From Streptomyces luomodiensis (GTDB lineage Bacteria > Actinomycetota > Actinomycetes > Streptomycetales > Streptomycetaceae): a stretch of DNA of 64,000 nt. The notes beneath the pieces were generated by a model. That model did no database searches. It saw nothing but the letters and a program-made list of their open reading frames with translations, and was not told where the DNA came from. The stretch is from assembly GCF_031679605.1 (NCBI RefSeq), contig NZ_CP117522.1, forward strand, positions 3,224,001 through 3,288,000, written 5' to 3'. The first letter of the stretch is position 1, and each line of letters opens with the position of its first letter. The translations under genes were made by a program, and so were the position numbers. Positions 33,144 to 38,365 of this stretch are shown piece by piece.

Positions 33144-34040
33144 TCACCGGGTCAACGCGAGCAGCTCATCGATCACCGGCCCCTCACCACCGTTACCGAG
33201 GTGGGCGATGGCCGCGAACGGGGCGATCACCTGGCTCCAGGCATGGAGCCGGTCGCCATCGAGCCCGCACGCCGCCGCCACGCGCGCGCAGCGGGTCTCG
33301 ACGCCCTCCAGCCCGGCACCGGCCACGACGTAATCCACAGCGTCGAAGCACGGATCACCCATACATGCCTTCGGATCGATGGCCATCAGACCGCGCTCCG
33401 CGCCGCCGTCGAGCACGTTGCCCAGGTGCAGGTCACCGTGGAGCAACACGGTTGTCGCTTCCGTGTCCAGCAGCCGCTCGCACCGCTGGATGGCCCTGTC
33501 CCACGCGGTGACGTCCATCCGTGCACTGATCGCAGGCTCGGACAGCCGCCTGCCGACCCGGGCGAAGGCCTCCTCGCACCGGCCGCGCAGCACACGCGGC
33601 GGCCACGGAGGCGGAGCGACCCCGTGCAACGCGGCGAGCAGGTCCGACCACTGCCCCGGAAGCGAAGCAGCGGACATGTCCTCCGCCGGCGTTCCGGGCA
33701 CGATCTCCTCCAGCACCATGGCACCCGCGTCCTCGTCGACGGCCAGCACAGAGGGCACCCGGCCCGAGGCAGCGAACCACCCCAGCATTCCGACCTGCTC
33801 GGCCAGAAGAGCTCGCTCCGGACTGATTTTCAGCACCGCAGGCGTGCCGTCGGGCCAACGGCACCGCAACGCAAGCGATGAAGCACCGTCCGGGAGGGAC
33901 TCACCGAGCGAAAGTCCCCACTGGGACGTCAGCCGCGCGATGAGATCCGGCGTGTCAGCGCACCATTCGGCAACCTGGGGACCGAATCGACGTACCAACC
34001 GCGTAGTGACGCTCTCCACATCCACCAGCAGCCGTTTCAC
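33144..34040 (-). CDS. APH(6)-like phosphotransferase (aminoglycoside/hydroxyurea kinase family)
   Basis: The kinase is about 298 residues if it starts at GTG 34040; GTG 34018 is also possible, and neither has a strong ribosome site. It has a lysine in AVLKIS (about 71), the catalytic loop HGDLHLGNVL (His201, Asp203, Asn208) and the metal loop MAIDPKACMGDPCFD (Asp222). The order and spacing are those of APH(6)/streptomycin-6-kinase and the hydroxyurea kinases. The same frame is open without a stop back through the truncated lantibiotic dehydratase to 35177, so it may be translated as a fusion or by read-in. The substrate is unknown. Confidence 0.8.
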   Translation of the reverse strand: MKRLLVDVESVTTRLVRRFGPQVAEWCADTPDLIARLTSQWGLSLGESLPDGASSLALRCRWPDGTPAVLKISPERALLAEQVGMLGWFAASGRVPSVLAVDEDAGAMVLEEIVPGTPAEDMSAASLPGQWSDLLAALHGVAPPPWPPRVLRGRCEEAFARVGRRLSEPAISARMDVTAWDRAIQRCERLLDTEATTVLLHGDLHLGNVLDGGAERGLMAIDPKACMGDPCFDAVDYVVAGAGLEGVETRCARVAAACGLDGDRLHAWSQVIAPFAAIAHLGNGGEGPVIDELLALTR

Positions 34041-34249
34041 ACGGGTCAGTGTGCCGCTCGCGCGATCTTTGTCCACCGCTTTTCCACCGCTCGCCGTGAA
34101 CGCGAGCCAACGAGCGCATCCGACCAGATCACGTGAGACAGGCTCATGGTCCGTGCACCGCAGCCACGAGCGCAGCAATCCGTATGTTCCGCAGGAACTC
34201 GTCGTTGTTGTCCACCCGATCGACGCTATGGCGCCTGTCGGACAGCTTG

Positions 34250-35317
34250 CTCCGGGGACGGGGCGCCTTCGAGCCGTTCGGGGCTGAGCACGGTCTGCTT
34301 CTCGCACCACAGCCTCGGGGATCTGCACGTCGCAGTCCAGGACGCTGTCCATCATCAGAGGAACAGGCGCGACGTCGGTGATCGCCCGCATCCGTTTGGA
34401 GGCATCGGCCTGCGGATGCCGTGGGAGAGGGCAATCGCGGCTGGCCAACGTCTGCCGGATGGCGTGGAGCCGCCGTACGAGGCCGGAGACCTCCGGGATC
34501 GTGTGCGCGTCGGCGGCGTCCAACTCGGCGCACAGGTGCTCGAAGGCGTCCACGGTGGTCGACGGAGCCCAGAGGCTGCTGATCAGCATGCCTTGTTCGA
34601 GCAGGCCGCCGAGAACGGTATCGATCTGCTGCGCGGACGCGTGGGGGAACTGGTCGGCGAGCAGGGTGCGCAGTTCGCCGTACCGGATCCGGGTCTCCGC
34701 AGCCAGAAGAGCCGCTGCGACCGGGCGGGTATGGCCCACGGAGACCTCCAGCGGGGCCAGGAGCGTCGCACGCCCGTCGGCCGGTCTGCCTGGGGCCACC
34801 CACCACGCACCACGTGCGTGACCGGTGTTGTTGGTGACGACGCGCAACCGGTCCAGGAGCGACGAACACCGCTCCGGGCGGGCTACGACGTCGCTGATCC
34901 ATTCCGCGTCGGCCCGTACCGACACCGCGTCCGCGCTGCCCCAGCGGACTTTCGGGATGGCGCCGACCCTCAAAGGCGCTGTCCCGGCGAACAGGCCGAA
35001 CGGCGTGGGGCGTCCGGACCAGCGCAACAGGTACGACAGTACGGGGAGAATGACGCGGCGGCTGCGGCGCGGATCCGGCTGCGCTGCGGTCAGCGTGCTC
35101 GTCACCTGCTCGGCCAGTACAGGACTGGCTGCTGACAGCGCGGTCTTCACGTCTCCCTGTCGCCAGATATCGGACAACCACGCGCGGGCGCGTCCAAGGC
35201 CCCCTCAGTGAGCAAGTCCAGGTCTTTCGGCAGGTCTTCTGCTGGGGGCCTGGCCCCGGTGGTGGCGCGCAGCATCGCGCCGGTCTGCCACCCGTAGCGG
35301 ACTGGTGGTGCAGCCAT
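34250..35317 (-). pseudogene. Lantibiotic dehydratase (LanB) N-terminal stump with a frameshift
   Basis: From ATG 35317 the minus strand reads MAAPPVRYGWQTGAMLRATT and PKDLDLLTEGALDAPAR. A frame change near 35195-35205 follows. In the next frame it continues WLSDIWRQGDVKTALSAASP and LSYLLRWSGRPTPFGLFAG, a clear LanB N-terminus. The match continues to about 34290-34250 (PLMMDSVLDCDVQIPEAVV) and then ends. Full LanB glutamylation domains are far longer, so more than half the enzyme is gone. The lesion pair makes dehydration activity unlikely. It lies downstream of the FxLD precursor and methyltransferase. Confidence 0.8.
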
Positions 35318-35396
35318 CGCTCGCCCTTCCCTTCGAGCAGCGGGTCGGCCGACGGTGCTGGGGCGCCTCTGCACCGGCGCCCCAGCAACCGGGCCG

Positions 35397-35560
35397 TTAG
35401 GCCGGGTCCTCGATGAAGCTGTTGCAGGCGCTGGCGCCGTTCGCGCAGGTACTGCCGCAGCCGTCATTCGTGCTGCACATCAACTTGCCGTTCGGGTGGG
35501 CGGCCACGACCACGCGCACGTTCAGTGCGAACTCCTTCGTGAGTTGAGTGGTGCGGGCGC
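35397..35560 (-). CDS. FxLD-family lanthipeptide precursor, damaged or unusual 5' end
   Basis: The minus strand encodes LTKEFALNVRVVVAAHPNG and then a Cys/Ser/Thr-rich core, CSTNDGCGSTCANGASACN, ending FIEDPA at stop 35397. Leader motif, NDGCGSTC core and the adjacent FxLD methyltransferase place it in the FxLD class I lanthipeptides; the motif is FALN here rather than FxLD. No ATG, GTG or TTG lies in frame between the leader and the methyltransferase stop. The only normal candidate is GTG 35519, 12 bases after AAGGAG, which would delete the FxLD motif. The true start is lost, or a rare start such as CTG is used. Confidence 0.75.
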
Positions 35561-36802
35561 CTAGCTCTCGACGGTGGTCTCCACCGAGTGCCAGGACAAG
35601 GTGACCCGGCTGTGCACCTTGTCGATGACGCGCTCTCCAGGGAGCTGGTCGTCGGGCGTGCCGGCCGGGAAGACACTGATCTTCGGACCCGGGCCACCGC
35701 GGTGTTCCTTCGCCCAGGTGCGCACGTGCTCGGTCACCGTCTGGGCGAGCTTCTGACGGGTCGGCCCGAAGGCGTGGACGCCGTACTCGACGTGCTCGTC
35801 GTCTTCGGTCCGGCGTGTGGTGAGGTACGCGAAGCTGTCCCCCTCGACGGTGGCCAGGGAGAAGTACCGGTTGCTGGGCGCCACCAGGCCGGTGTCCAAG
35901 TCGGGGTCTACCGCCATGACGCAAAAACCGTCCAGGACGGTCGCCAGGTACATCTGCAGGGTGTCCACGTGCTCCTGAAGACCAACCGTGACCGAGGTCC
36001 ACATCTCCTCGCGCACGGTAAGGACTGCGTTGTCCAGTTGACTTGGGTCCGCGGGCAGCCCGTCATCGAAGCGGAGACCGATCTCGTCGGTGCCGGCGAC
36101 CAGCAGCAGTTCCTCCTGATGCGCGGCGGCACCCTGCATCGGCACGAAGCCGCACACCCTCGCCGAGCTGCTCTCCAGGTGGTCGCCCACGCGCTTGAAG
36201 TCGATGGTGCGCGTCAGCCCGCGCATCCGCAGAGGCACGACCAGACGCCCGCCGTCGGTCAGCTCCTCTCGCCAGCCAGGCAGGATGTCCCATGCCCCGG
36301 CGGTGACGATGATGCGGTCGTACGGCCCGCGCCCGGGAAAATCCTCGGCGGCGTCGGCGAGCACGACGTTGACCTGGGGGTAGCCGTTCTCCACAAGCAA
36401 GCGGGTGGCACGCTCGGTGACCTCGGGGTCGATGTCCACCGTCGTGACCGTGCCGGACTCGCCGACCAGCTCTGCCAGGTACGCCGCATTCAAACCGCCC
36501 GAGCCGATCTCCAGCACGTTCATGCCCGGCTTGACCGCGGCCTGCTCCAGCATCATCCCTTGGATCTGTGGCGCGCTGACCGAGCTGATGCTGACGCCGT
36601 GCTCGTCCTTCTTCGTTACGACAGCGCCGTAGGCGTTGTACGCCTCCTCCAGAGAGGCGCCCGGCGTGAACGCGTGCCGGGGCACGCGCCGCATGACCTC
36701 CTCGACCTCGGGAGTGGTCAGCCATCCCTTGCTGGTGAGTTCGTCCACCACATCGTTGCGCAGCCGATCCGCATCACTACGCTCAGTGGTCGCGGGAGTC
36801 AT
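35561..36802 (-). CDS. FxLD-system methyltransferase (PIMT-like)
   Basis: This 413-residue protein resembles protein-L-isoaspartate O-methyltransferase in its N-terminal half: MMLEQAAVKPGMNVLEIGSG (SAM motif I near 98-106), TTVDIDPEVTERA and IIVTAGAWDILPGW. A C-terminal domain specific to FxLD systems follows (VHAFGPTRQKLAQTVTEHVR). In the olvA-type system a relative converts a core Asp to isoAsp. The core here contains Asn-Asp-Gly, a fitting site. Start ATG 36802 has GGAAGG upstream. The gene is intact while its LanB is broken, so it may be a recent orphan. Confidence 0.88.
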   Translation of the reverse strand: MTPATTERSDADRLRNDVVDELTSKGWLTTPEVEEVMRRVPRHAFTPGASLEEAYNAYGAVVTKKDEHGVSISSVSAPQIQGMMLEQAAVKPGMNVLEIGSGGLNAAYLAELVGESGTVTTVDIDPEVTERATRLLVENGYPQVNVVLADAAEDFPGRGPYDRIIVTAGAWDILPGWREELTDGGRLVVPLRMRGLTRTIDFKRVGDHLESSSARVCGFVPMQGAAAHQEELLLVAGTDEIGLRFDDGLPADPSQLDNAVLTVREEMWTSVTVGLQEHVDTLQMYLATVLDGFCVMAVDPDLDTGLVAPSNRYFSLATVEGDSFAYLTTRRTEDDEHVEYGVHAFGPTRQKLAQTVTEHVRTWAKEHRGGPGPKISVFPAGTPDDQLPGERVIDKVHSRVTLSWHSVETTVES

Positions 36803-36970
36803 GGGCGAGTCCTTCCGATAGTTCAGGGGGTGCCTCAGCCTGCTATGTCGACCGCTGCGGCGGTGACCATGAAGATCGCATCCAGCTCGCGTGGGACACG
36901 ACCAGCATCCCTCGCAAAACGCCTGGTGCAGGCGCCTTTGATACGACAGGGCCGTATCAGGCGAGGGTTG

Positions 36971-37840
36971 TCACAGGCGCTTTTCCTCGCCGGGAATCGC
37001 GACCTGCACAAGCTGCCTGTTGAGAATGTCCGAAAGCCGGTCGCCATCCAGGGTGAGACGGACGATGTGATGATCGGATACGTGGAGAGGTACCTCGATG
37101 ACATCGACGTTGGTCACCGCGGCCAGCAGATCCGTGGTGACGTAGATCCTGTCGATGCGTGCGTCTGGGCCGTGCGTTGAGCAACCATCGACCGTACGTG
37201 ACACCGCGGTCGCACTGCCGCACGGGGTGGTGGCCCGGTACCGGGCGACATCCTCCAGGCCGGCGATGCGCAGTACCTCGTCCACGCGGGTGTCCATCTG
37301 CCGTGTGCCGTCCGGGCCGACATACGAGCGGTGGAGGCGGTGCCGGCGGTCACGGATCTTCGCAAGCACGTACACGCTGTCACCCAGCAACACCGCTGCC
37401 CGCTCGGCCTGCTGAATGCGCAGCGTCAACAGCTCTTTATCGGCCCAGGTCCGCAGCTGCTCCTGCAGCGCGGCGGCCTCCGTCGCCCCGGGCTTCGGCG
37501 CTTCCCCCTCGGCGTGCTCAGCGCCCTCCACCGCGATCTTCTGTTCCGAGCCGAGCAGGTATCCGAGCGCGGTGTCCACGAGCTTCGCGGCGTCGCCCAG
37601 CTCCCGCCGCTCGATCCCCGTTTCATCACCTGCGGCCGCCGCAAGCTGGCCAGCCTGGTTGTTGTCATAGGCCGACAGCACCTTGTACGCGGCCAGCCGC
37701 CGCAGTTCCTGGGGCGGCAGCCACACGGCAGTCAGTTCCGGGAACGACTGGTTCCCCGGCCTGCCGGCCTCGGCCATCACCGGCTTGTAGTTCAGCCACG
37801 ACCACGCATCGATCACGAACTGGCGCAGGCCCATCTCCAC
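36971..37840 (-). CDS. Chimeric ORF: actinophage portal-like N-terminus and EEP-nuclease-like C-terminus
   Basis: This 289-residue ORF has an N-terminal ~165 residues (LPPQELRRLAAYKVLSAYDN, AAKLVDTALGYLLGSEQK, IQQAERAAVLLGDSVYVLA) that look like the start of phage-type portal proteins. From about residue 170 (KIRDRRHRLHRSYVGPDG) it looks like the end of an endonuclease/exonuclease/phosphatase domain, with RIDRIYVTT and the final SDHHIVRLTL motif. The EEP N-terminal catalytic half is absent. It is best read as two gene fragments fused by recombination; both assignments are by eye. It lies in the scarred region between lanthipeptide and hsp20 loci. Confidence 0.5.
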   Translation of the reverse strand: MEMGLRQFVIDAWSWLNYKPVMAEAGRPGNQSFPELTAVWLPPQELRRLAAYKVLSAYDNNQAGQLAAAAGDETGIERRELGDAAKLVDTALGYLLGSEQKIAVEGAEHAEGEAPKPGATEAAALQEQLRTWADKELLTLRIQQAERAAVLLGDSVYVLAKIRDRRHRLHRSYVGPDGTRQMDTRVDEVLRIAGLEDVARYRATTPCGSATAVSRTVDGCSTHGPDARIDRIYVTTDLLAAVTNVDVIEVPLHVSDHHIVRLTLDGDRLSDILNRQLVQVAIPGEEKRL

Positions 37841-37867
37841 TCCCAGGAAGTCGGCCCCGCGCCAACA

Positions 37868-38365
37868 TCAAACCCTAGCCGCCGTCCACCAGGCCCGCCG
37901 TCGCGCTGTGGGGGCAGTCCGCGACGAGTCCGAGGCAGTGCGCCCTGCGCCGCAGGGCACCACCGCGCGCACCGTCTTGCCACCGCCTGCCCTGCCGGTC
38001 ACGGTCACCGAGCGAGCCAGCCGGTGAACCATCGGCCAGCCGAAGCCCCCGCCGCCGACCCGGTCCGAGATACGCCACTGCGGACGAACCAGGCTGGAGT
38101 CGCCCACGGCCACCTCGACGGCGTCCGGCAGAGCAGCCAGGCTCAGCACGCAGGAGCCTCCCGCGTGCCGCAGCGCGTTGGTGACCAGCTCCGACACCAC
38201 CAGCGCCACGCTGTCGGCCGCCTCCCTACCAACATCGAATGGCAGACACTCCACGAAGGCGCGGGCGCCATCACGGGCCATGGCGATAGAGCCCGGCCGG
38301 TCCATCGAGACAAAGATCGTCAGCGTCGCCGGTCCGGCCACCGGCAGGATCTCCGCCTCATCCAT
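37868..38365 (-). CDS. Anti-sigma-type ATP-binding protein (HATPase, RsbW-like)
   Basis: This 165-residue GHKL ATPase has the N-box [18 protein letters not shown] and the G-box region [17 protein letters not shown]. Start ATG 38365 has GGGGTGAGG upstream; the open frame extends further 5' without a site. Streptomyces carries many such single-domain ATPases, acting as anti-sigma factors or partners in ATPase/roadblock signalling. The C-terminal ~30 residues are Arg/Ala/Thr-rich and may be out of the natural frame. Partner unknown. Confidence 0.75.

Follow-up and report, generated by a model that had tools for sequence, protein, structure and literature searches.

The minus strand of the Streptomyces luomodiensis DNA analysed here very probably carries, judging from its sequence, a pseudogenised class I FxLD lanthipeptide (lanthimiditide) cluster. 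We refer to the whole 64,000-nucleotide stretch as the window; it spans positions 3,224,001 to 3,288,000 of the genome, which is complete and consists of one contig of 10,044,493 bases. The locus is a broken member of an already known family and not a new pathway, and the cluster is probably dead or dying. Three lesions are found in this strain, which are 1) a loss in the precursor gene, 2) a change of frame in LanB, and 3) a truncation of LanB; LanC is absent as well. The features are listed in Table 1.

Table 1. Features of the FxLD locus and its flanks (window positions).
Feature	Position	Strand	Basis
FxLD precursor remnant: box (FALN, from its F on), core, and stop	35397-35531	-	TIGR04363; no standard start shortly before
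AAGGAG, presumed ribosome-binding site of the precursor, abutting the F codon (TTC); deletion junction	35532-35537	-	letters; intergenic DNA of 14 relatives, by eye
LanB remnant, first piece: start codon, residues 1-41	35195-35317	-	tblastn with P0122, 56% identity
LanB remnant, second piece, other frame: residues 40-344 of 1016	34287-35201	-	tblastn with P0122, 73.8% identity
FxLD-system (PIMT-like, LanSA type) methyltransferase, 413 aa, intact	35561-36802	-	TIGR04364, PCMT PF01135
Aminoglycoside/hydroxyurea-kinase-like gene, 298 aa, own GTG start at 34040, outside the FxLD cluster	33144-34040	-	PF04655, E 3.6e-22
Junction stretch between LanB remnant and kinase region	34132-34286		only short matches beyond the kinase flank
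Weak endonuclease/exonuclease/phosphatase-like gene, possibly an old cluster neighbour	36971-37840	-	PF03372, E 0.0031, below family cut-off

The first-pass annotation, made from the letters alone, had proposed an FxLD-like precursor (FALN, NDGCGSTC) next to an intact PIMT-like FxLD methyltransferase and had called for an HMM search with the models of both families, which bore it out. The start-less precursor frame (35397-35561, minus strand), which ends in TTQLTKEFALNVRVVVAAHPNGKLMCSTNDGCGSTCANGASACNSFIEDPA followed by the stop, scores 61.0 bits against TIGR04363 "FxLD family lanthipeptide" (cut-off 30, E 7.6e-17), and its core carries the TxDGC motif as TNDGC. The methyltransferase scores 556.8 bits against TIGR04364 "methyltransferase, FxLD system" (cut-off 320), with all 394 of the 394 profile positions aligned, and is also matched by the PCMT domain PF01135 in a Pfam search. 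Since none of 14 control genomes has a TIGR04363 match, while the own genome has one, and none has a TIGR04364 match above cut-off, both matches are far beyond chance. Within the genus, precursor matches at E ≤1e-3 are found in 41 of 392 genomes, the present one included, and methyltransferase matches over the family cut-off occur in at least 126 of 295 genomes, among which the subtype may differ.

The precursor was said to have no ATG, GTG, or TTG upstream of its leader, and this holds: the window has no such codon in frame between the conserved end of the methyltransferase and the F of the box. Reading in the precursor frame stays open through the methyltransferase end, which led us to consider a fusion of methyltransferase and precursor by way of a shifted frame. 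The nearest in-frame standard starts upstream, TTG 35924 and then GTG 36002, are both deep inside the methyltransferase gene; in-frame CTG codons upstream of the box lie at 35594 and 35717. An in-frame ATG stands 39 to 81 nt before box F in 29/29 relatives examined (L041-L069), which are the loci returned among the 40 other genomes with a precursor match; in L045, L047, and L048 the anchor is one codon past the F, with the ranges unaffected. The distance from the conserved methyltransferase residue W404 to box F is 59 nt in the window versus 95 to 164 nt in these 29 relatives. The intergenic DNA is still alignable by eye (GCACCACTCAACTCACGAAGG in the window versus GCACCACTCCATCAACGAAGG in L090), and in such alignments the AAGGAG sits at the same place as the relatives' ribosome-binding site. 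Since AAGGAG lies directly against the box with no start in between, a deletion would have taken the first part of the leader together with its start codon, and no translatable precursor with a leader is left in the window. In the closest complete precursors, P0243 and P0244, the F is preceded by 23 and 24 leader residues ending in D-E, so the GAG of AAGGAG and the Glu codon could be a repeat at the deletion ends. The simplest account, we infer, is a deletion whose ends lie at the binding-site GAG and the Glu codon.

P0243 and P0244 have the FALN box and the NDGCG core likewise, which makes both normal for this branch and not changes of the strain; a special adaptation of the core, marked by NDG and FALN, was considered and rejected on this ground. 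Two database records give the broken precursor as a protein, each from a doubtful start: P0242 as 65 aa from CTG 35594 inside the methyltransferase gene, and P0253 as 40 aa from a GTG after the box. Some gene callers evidently assume a start here.

LanB was compared with P0122, an intact protein of 1016 aa with whole Lant_dehydr_N and Lant_dehydr_C domains. The frameshift that had been placed near 35200 was recovered by tblastn with P0122, in which two frames meet within 35195-35201, near a G/C run. In the window, Pfam Lant_dehydr_N is matched over profile positions 4-290 of 649 only. An end of LanB near 34250, far short of a full dehydratase, had also been claimed. The shortfall is real, with homology ending at 34287 (residue 344) and nothing further of P0122 in the window by tblastn, but the frame itself does not close there, staying open on to 33144 and running through the aminoglycoside-phosphotransferase-like kinase. 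About two-thirds of LanB is thus gone, and no full-length LanB stands beside the precursor. The 10-Mb genome has no other LanB: its one PF04738 match is the remnant, and a search with P0122 finds only the remnant. We therefore rejected the idea that the rest of LanB had moved elsewhere in the genome, since neither a further P0122 piece nor a further PF04738 match is present.

The window has no LanC either, as had been noted from its letters: the best match to the LanC of L096, used as a query, is 19 aa long with E 0.2, and the sole PF05147 match of the genome lies 4.8 Mb from the window. When we asked whether LanC had moved elsewhere in the genome, only this distant LANC_like fragment was present (8,027,699-8,028,124, about 8.03 Mb; about 1483-2070 of L147, minus strand), which covers PF05147 positions 158-282 of 350 and is 35% identical to FxLD LanC over its middle. 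It adjoins a gene that reads by eye like an IMP dehydrogenase, with no LanB near, and is perhaps a relic of another class I lanthipeptide cluster. The most improbable of the readings we weighed is that a different lanthipeptide system encoded in this genome continues to modify the precursor in trans. This single LANC_like match speaks for it; against it, the match spans only the profile positions just given and resembles FxLD LanC over its middle only, the genome has no second LanB, and the precursor has no standard start nearby.

Could the lesions be errors of sequencing or assembly, the true genome having a complete cluster? The frame change lies close to a G/C run and, taken alone, could be a sequencing error, and in one relative, G224 (88% complete; loci L103 and L057), LanB is split over frames as happens in error-prone assemblies. 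However, the genome studied here is a single contig with 100% completeness and 0.87% contamination, the rest of LanB is absent from the whole of it, and indel errors do not account for the missing start region or for the loss of about two-thirds of LanB and of LanC. Two of the three lesions, the loss of the precursor start and that of LanB and LanC, exceed the size of base-calling errors, and we regard an artefact as extremely unlikely.

A comparison with intact clusters, which had been suggested with the first annotation, shows what is missing. In the 14 clusters that were fetched, a subset of the 29 relative loci, the gene order is methyltransferase, precursor, LanB, LanC, and a second Lant_dehydr_C protein (PF14028), the last three following the precursor in 14/14; every one of the 29 precursors has its ATG. 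LanB gives one unbroken alignment in 13/14, the exception being L103 (G224), where LanB, LanC, and the last protein are all split over frames. LanC is in two frames in L099. In L095 (G138), whose cluster is complete in other respects, the methyltransferase is represented by residues 142-404 only, the first 141 being missing, so that this gene may be damaged there. Single breaks are therefore not unique to the genome of the window. Among the 29 shorter loci, LanB lies downstream in 28 (not in L060). In L043 it is displaced by 1.27 kb, and in L092 (G225) it starts about 1.27 kb after the precursor versus the usual 0.1 to 0.2 kb or so, which indicates that something was inserted between precursor and LanB in G225.

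The kinase into which the LanB frame runs has its start at the same codon in 5/5 compared relatives (GTG in four, ATG in one), is split over frames in 2/5 of the compared loci, and is without any LanB match in all five. Since the segment 33137-34131 is 93 to 94% identical to loci on four Streptomyces plasmids and the five other loci lack LanB, we assign the kinase to the flank. Among the 120 homologues listed for the LanB-kinase open frame (150 found, 8000 candidates scored), coverage never exceeds 49%, and the fusion of the two frames therefore looks private to this genome. The source of 34132-34286 was sought in 392 genus genomes (best two candidates each), where the matches beyond the kinase flank were all short, and a 34-aa translated piece of it has no match in the plasmid collection. 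In another record, the kinase homologue P0134 is joined to a transposase-like domain (PF13340); together with the occurrence of the kinase on plasmids, this suggests that its 5′ part may have been used repeatedly as a site of insertion.

On the other side of the cluster, a stretch 45.7% identical to the endonuclease/exonuclease/phosphatase-like gene lies just upstream of the methyltransferase in one of the 14 fetched clusters (L098). Streptomyces plasmids also carry DNA similar to this gene, annotated as hypothetical proteins. Plasmids of the genus (NZ_CP108158, NZ_CP107736, NZ_CP104318, NZ_CP030864, and others) have annotated FxLD methyltransferases (fxlM) too, and such clusters may therefore travel.

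A second genome of the species, G360, has less of the cluster. It shows no precursor match in the profile search of 392 genus genomes, no close methyltransferase (best 36% over residues 5-191, with 39/39 candidates scored), and no LanB piece at the syntenic place (L104). Its DNA matches the window at one place, up to 33083, at 33144-33735, and from about 39470 onward; within 33736-37915 the only match among the best 40 of 781 candidates is 104 nt at 71%. The G360 kinase breaks off at 33735, and the piece after it reads by eye like the end of an IS transposase. The segment 37916-39474 of the window lies some 2.7 Mb off, at 5.76 Mb in G360, next to a frame that also reads like a transposase (L105). 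Since the kinase is complete in the window and in relatives, we read the state of G360 as a deletion and rearrangement in G360 itself. The separate lesions, the absence of LanC, the lack of a replacement LanB, and the absence of precursor and methyltransferase from G360 give good support to the initial suggestion that the cluster is being lost. A search of genome contigs for further carriers gave 33 pattern matches and no confirmed relative.

The methyltransferase stands apart from this decay. Its best homologues are P0003 (Streptomyces lydicus) and P0004, 87 and 86% identical, and the conserved blocks are kept in alignments with seven close homologues and with 13 relatives from the fetched clusters (L095, matched over residues 142-404 only, being omitted). 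Its tail, SVETTVES, resembles those of close homologues, which led us to reject the idea that the deletion had altered its C terminus, suggested by a tail longer than most. By sequence, the solved structures nearest to it belong to ordinary protein-isoaspartate methyltransferases (e.g., 2yxe, 1jg1, and 1dl5). Across 188 columns conserved in at least 95% of the 120 listed sequences (that of the window included), it departs at four, the median being 2 and the maximum 16, and 30 of the 120 depart more. In a protein-level count over three sequences, it has 14 unique residues versus 29 in P0003 and 32 in P0004. We thus see no sign of relaxed constraint in this alignment-based comparison, and since residue changes are few, the decay is probably recent. 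The same constraint would also fit continued use, and the core and LanB pieces also show few further changes, a point we counted against decay. Overall, the methyltransferase appears intact yet most likely without a substrate.

The first annotation had raised an alternative, that the precursor now feeds a methyltransferase-only pathway acting on the Asn-Asp-Gly core, and we found no support for it. Such a reduced pathway, similar to those of pamtides and imiditides, would translate the core from a nonstandard start and form aspartimide or isoaspartate on a linear peptide. In its favour, the enzyme is intact and evolves no faster than two sister sequences, the core is family-like with TNDGC, two in-frame codons follow closely on AAGGAG, a CTG (35523-35525) at 6 nt and a GTG (35517-35519) at 12 nt, and methyltransferase-only RiPPs are on record (PMC10787088). 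However, a start at either codon would exclude box F, and OlvSA is described as acting only after OlvB and OlvC, on a dehydrated and cyclised peptide, to give mostly isoaspartate via aspartimide (PMC13001092). The same source describes a common WxxxGxP near the C terminus of lasso, graspetide, and imiditide type enzymes, a motif that none of the 120 listed FxLD methyltransferases has, the window's included, so this enzyme provides no grounds for expecting a linear substrate. Finally, the 90% identity cluster of the methyltransferase has one member, which means that there is no second strain in which the arrangement is kept and no sister with the same lesions. We consider this reading highly unlikely. 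A slimmer chance still goes to a cluster caught in the act of turning methyltransferase-only, in which a box-less core would be made from a nonstandard start by the old ribosome-binding site and the PIMT-like enzyme would be working.

Returning to decay as the preferred reading, the lesions and absences can be read directly in the DNA, and from them we infer how and in what order the cluster may have been lost, and that no product would be made. The ancestor would have had its genes in the order methyltransferase, precursor, LanB, LanC, and second Lant_dehydr_C protein. LanB, perhaps with the second protein, would have dehydrated Ser and Thr in the core, and LanC would have closed thioether rings. 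The methyltransferase would then have methylated the Asp of TxDGC, leading to aspartimide and isoaspartate, by analogy with the work on OlvA and OlvSA. Since OlvSA yields isoaspartate and the core has TxDGC as TNDGC, the ancestral product was probably an aspartimide- or isoAsp-containing lanthipeptide; PIMT-like methyltransferases in lanthipeptide clusters are reported to pair with class I precursors, most with TxDGC (PMC10787088). One deletion of about 36 to 105 nt, a size judged from the spacing in relatives, would have run from the ribosome-binding site to the FxLD box and removed the start codon and leader front. Another event would have changed the LanB frame within 35195-35201. A larger deletion or recombination would have taken the part of LanB beyond residue 344 as well as LanC and the last protein, and joined the remnant to the kinase flank.

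The locus documents how an FxLD cluster breaks, with start and leader front lost and LanB cut in its N-terminal third. A search of the literature for decayed clusters found no paper, although the search was limited and says little. Family-based mining with TIGR04363 and TIGR04364 would count this dead cluster as a member, and the orphan FxLD methyltransferase offers a natural test of PIMT-like action on a linear peptide.

Among known systems, those nearest to the locus are P0003 with P0244, of S. lydicus, and P0004 with P0122 and P0243, each set presumed to sit together. The likeness extends over the methyltransferase (87 and 86%), the FALN box, the NDGCG core, and LanB (about 73% over the common part). 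P0243 and P0244 have the full leader and P0122 is a LanB of full length (1016 aa), whereas both are broken in the window. The OlvA/OlvSA system of Streptomyces olivaceus, as described in PMC13001092, likewise places a PIMT-like methyltransferase beside a class I precursor with a conserved core Asp; there, OlvB and OlvC are present and required before OlvSA, whereas the window has a broken dehydratase and no cyclase. Pamtides and imiditides, according to PMC10787088 and PMC13001092, share with the window a methyltransferase and a precursor without a working dehydratase or cyclase. Their substrates are described there as linear or zinc-folded, and WxxxGxP is reported for the imiditide enzymes (PMC13001092), whereas the enzyme of the window is without this motif and the LanB remnant shows a lanthipeptide origin.
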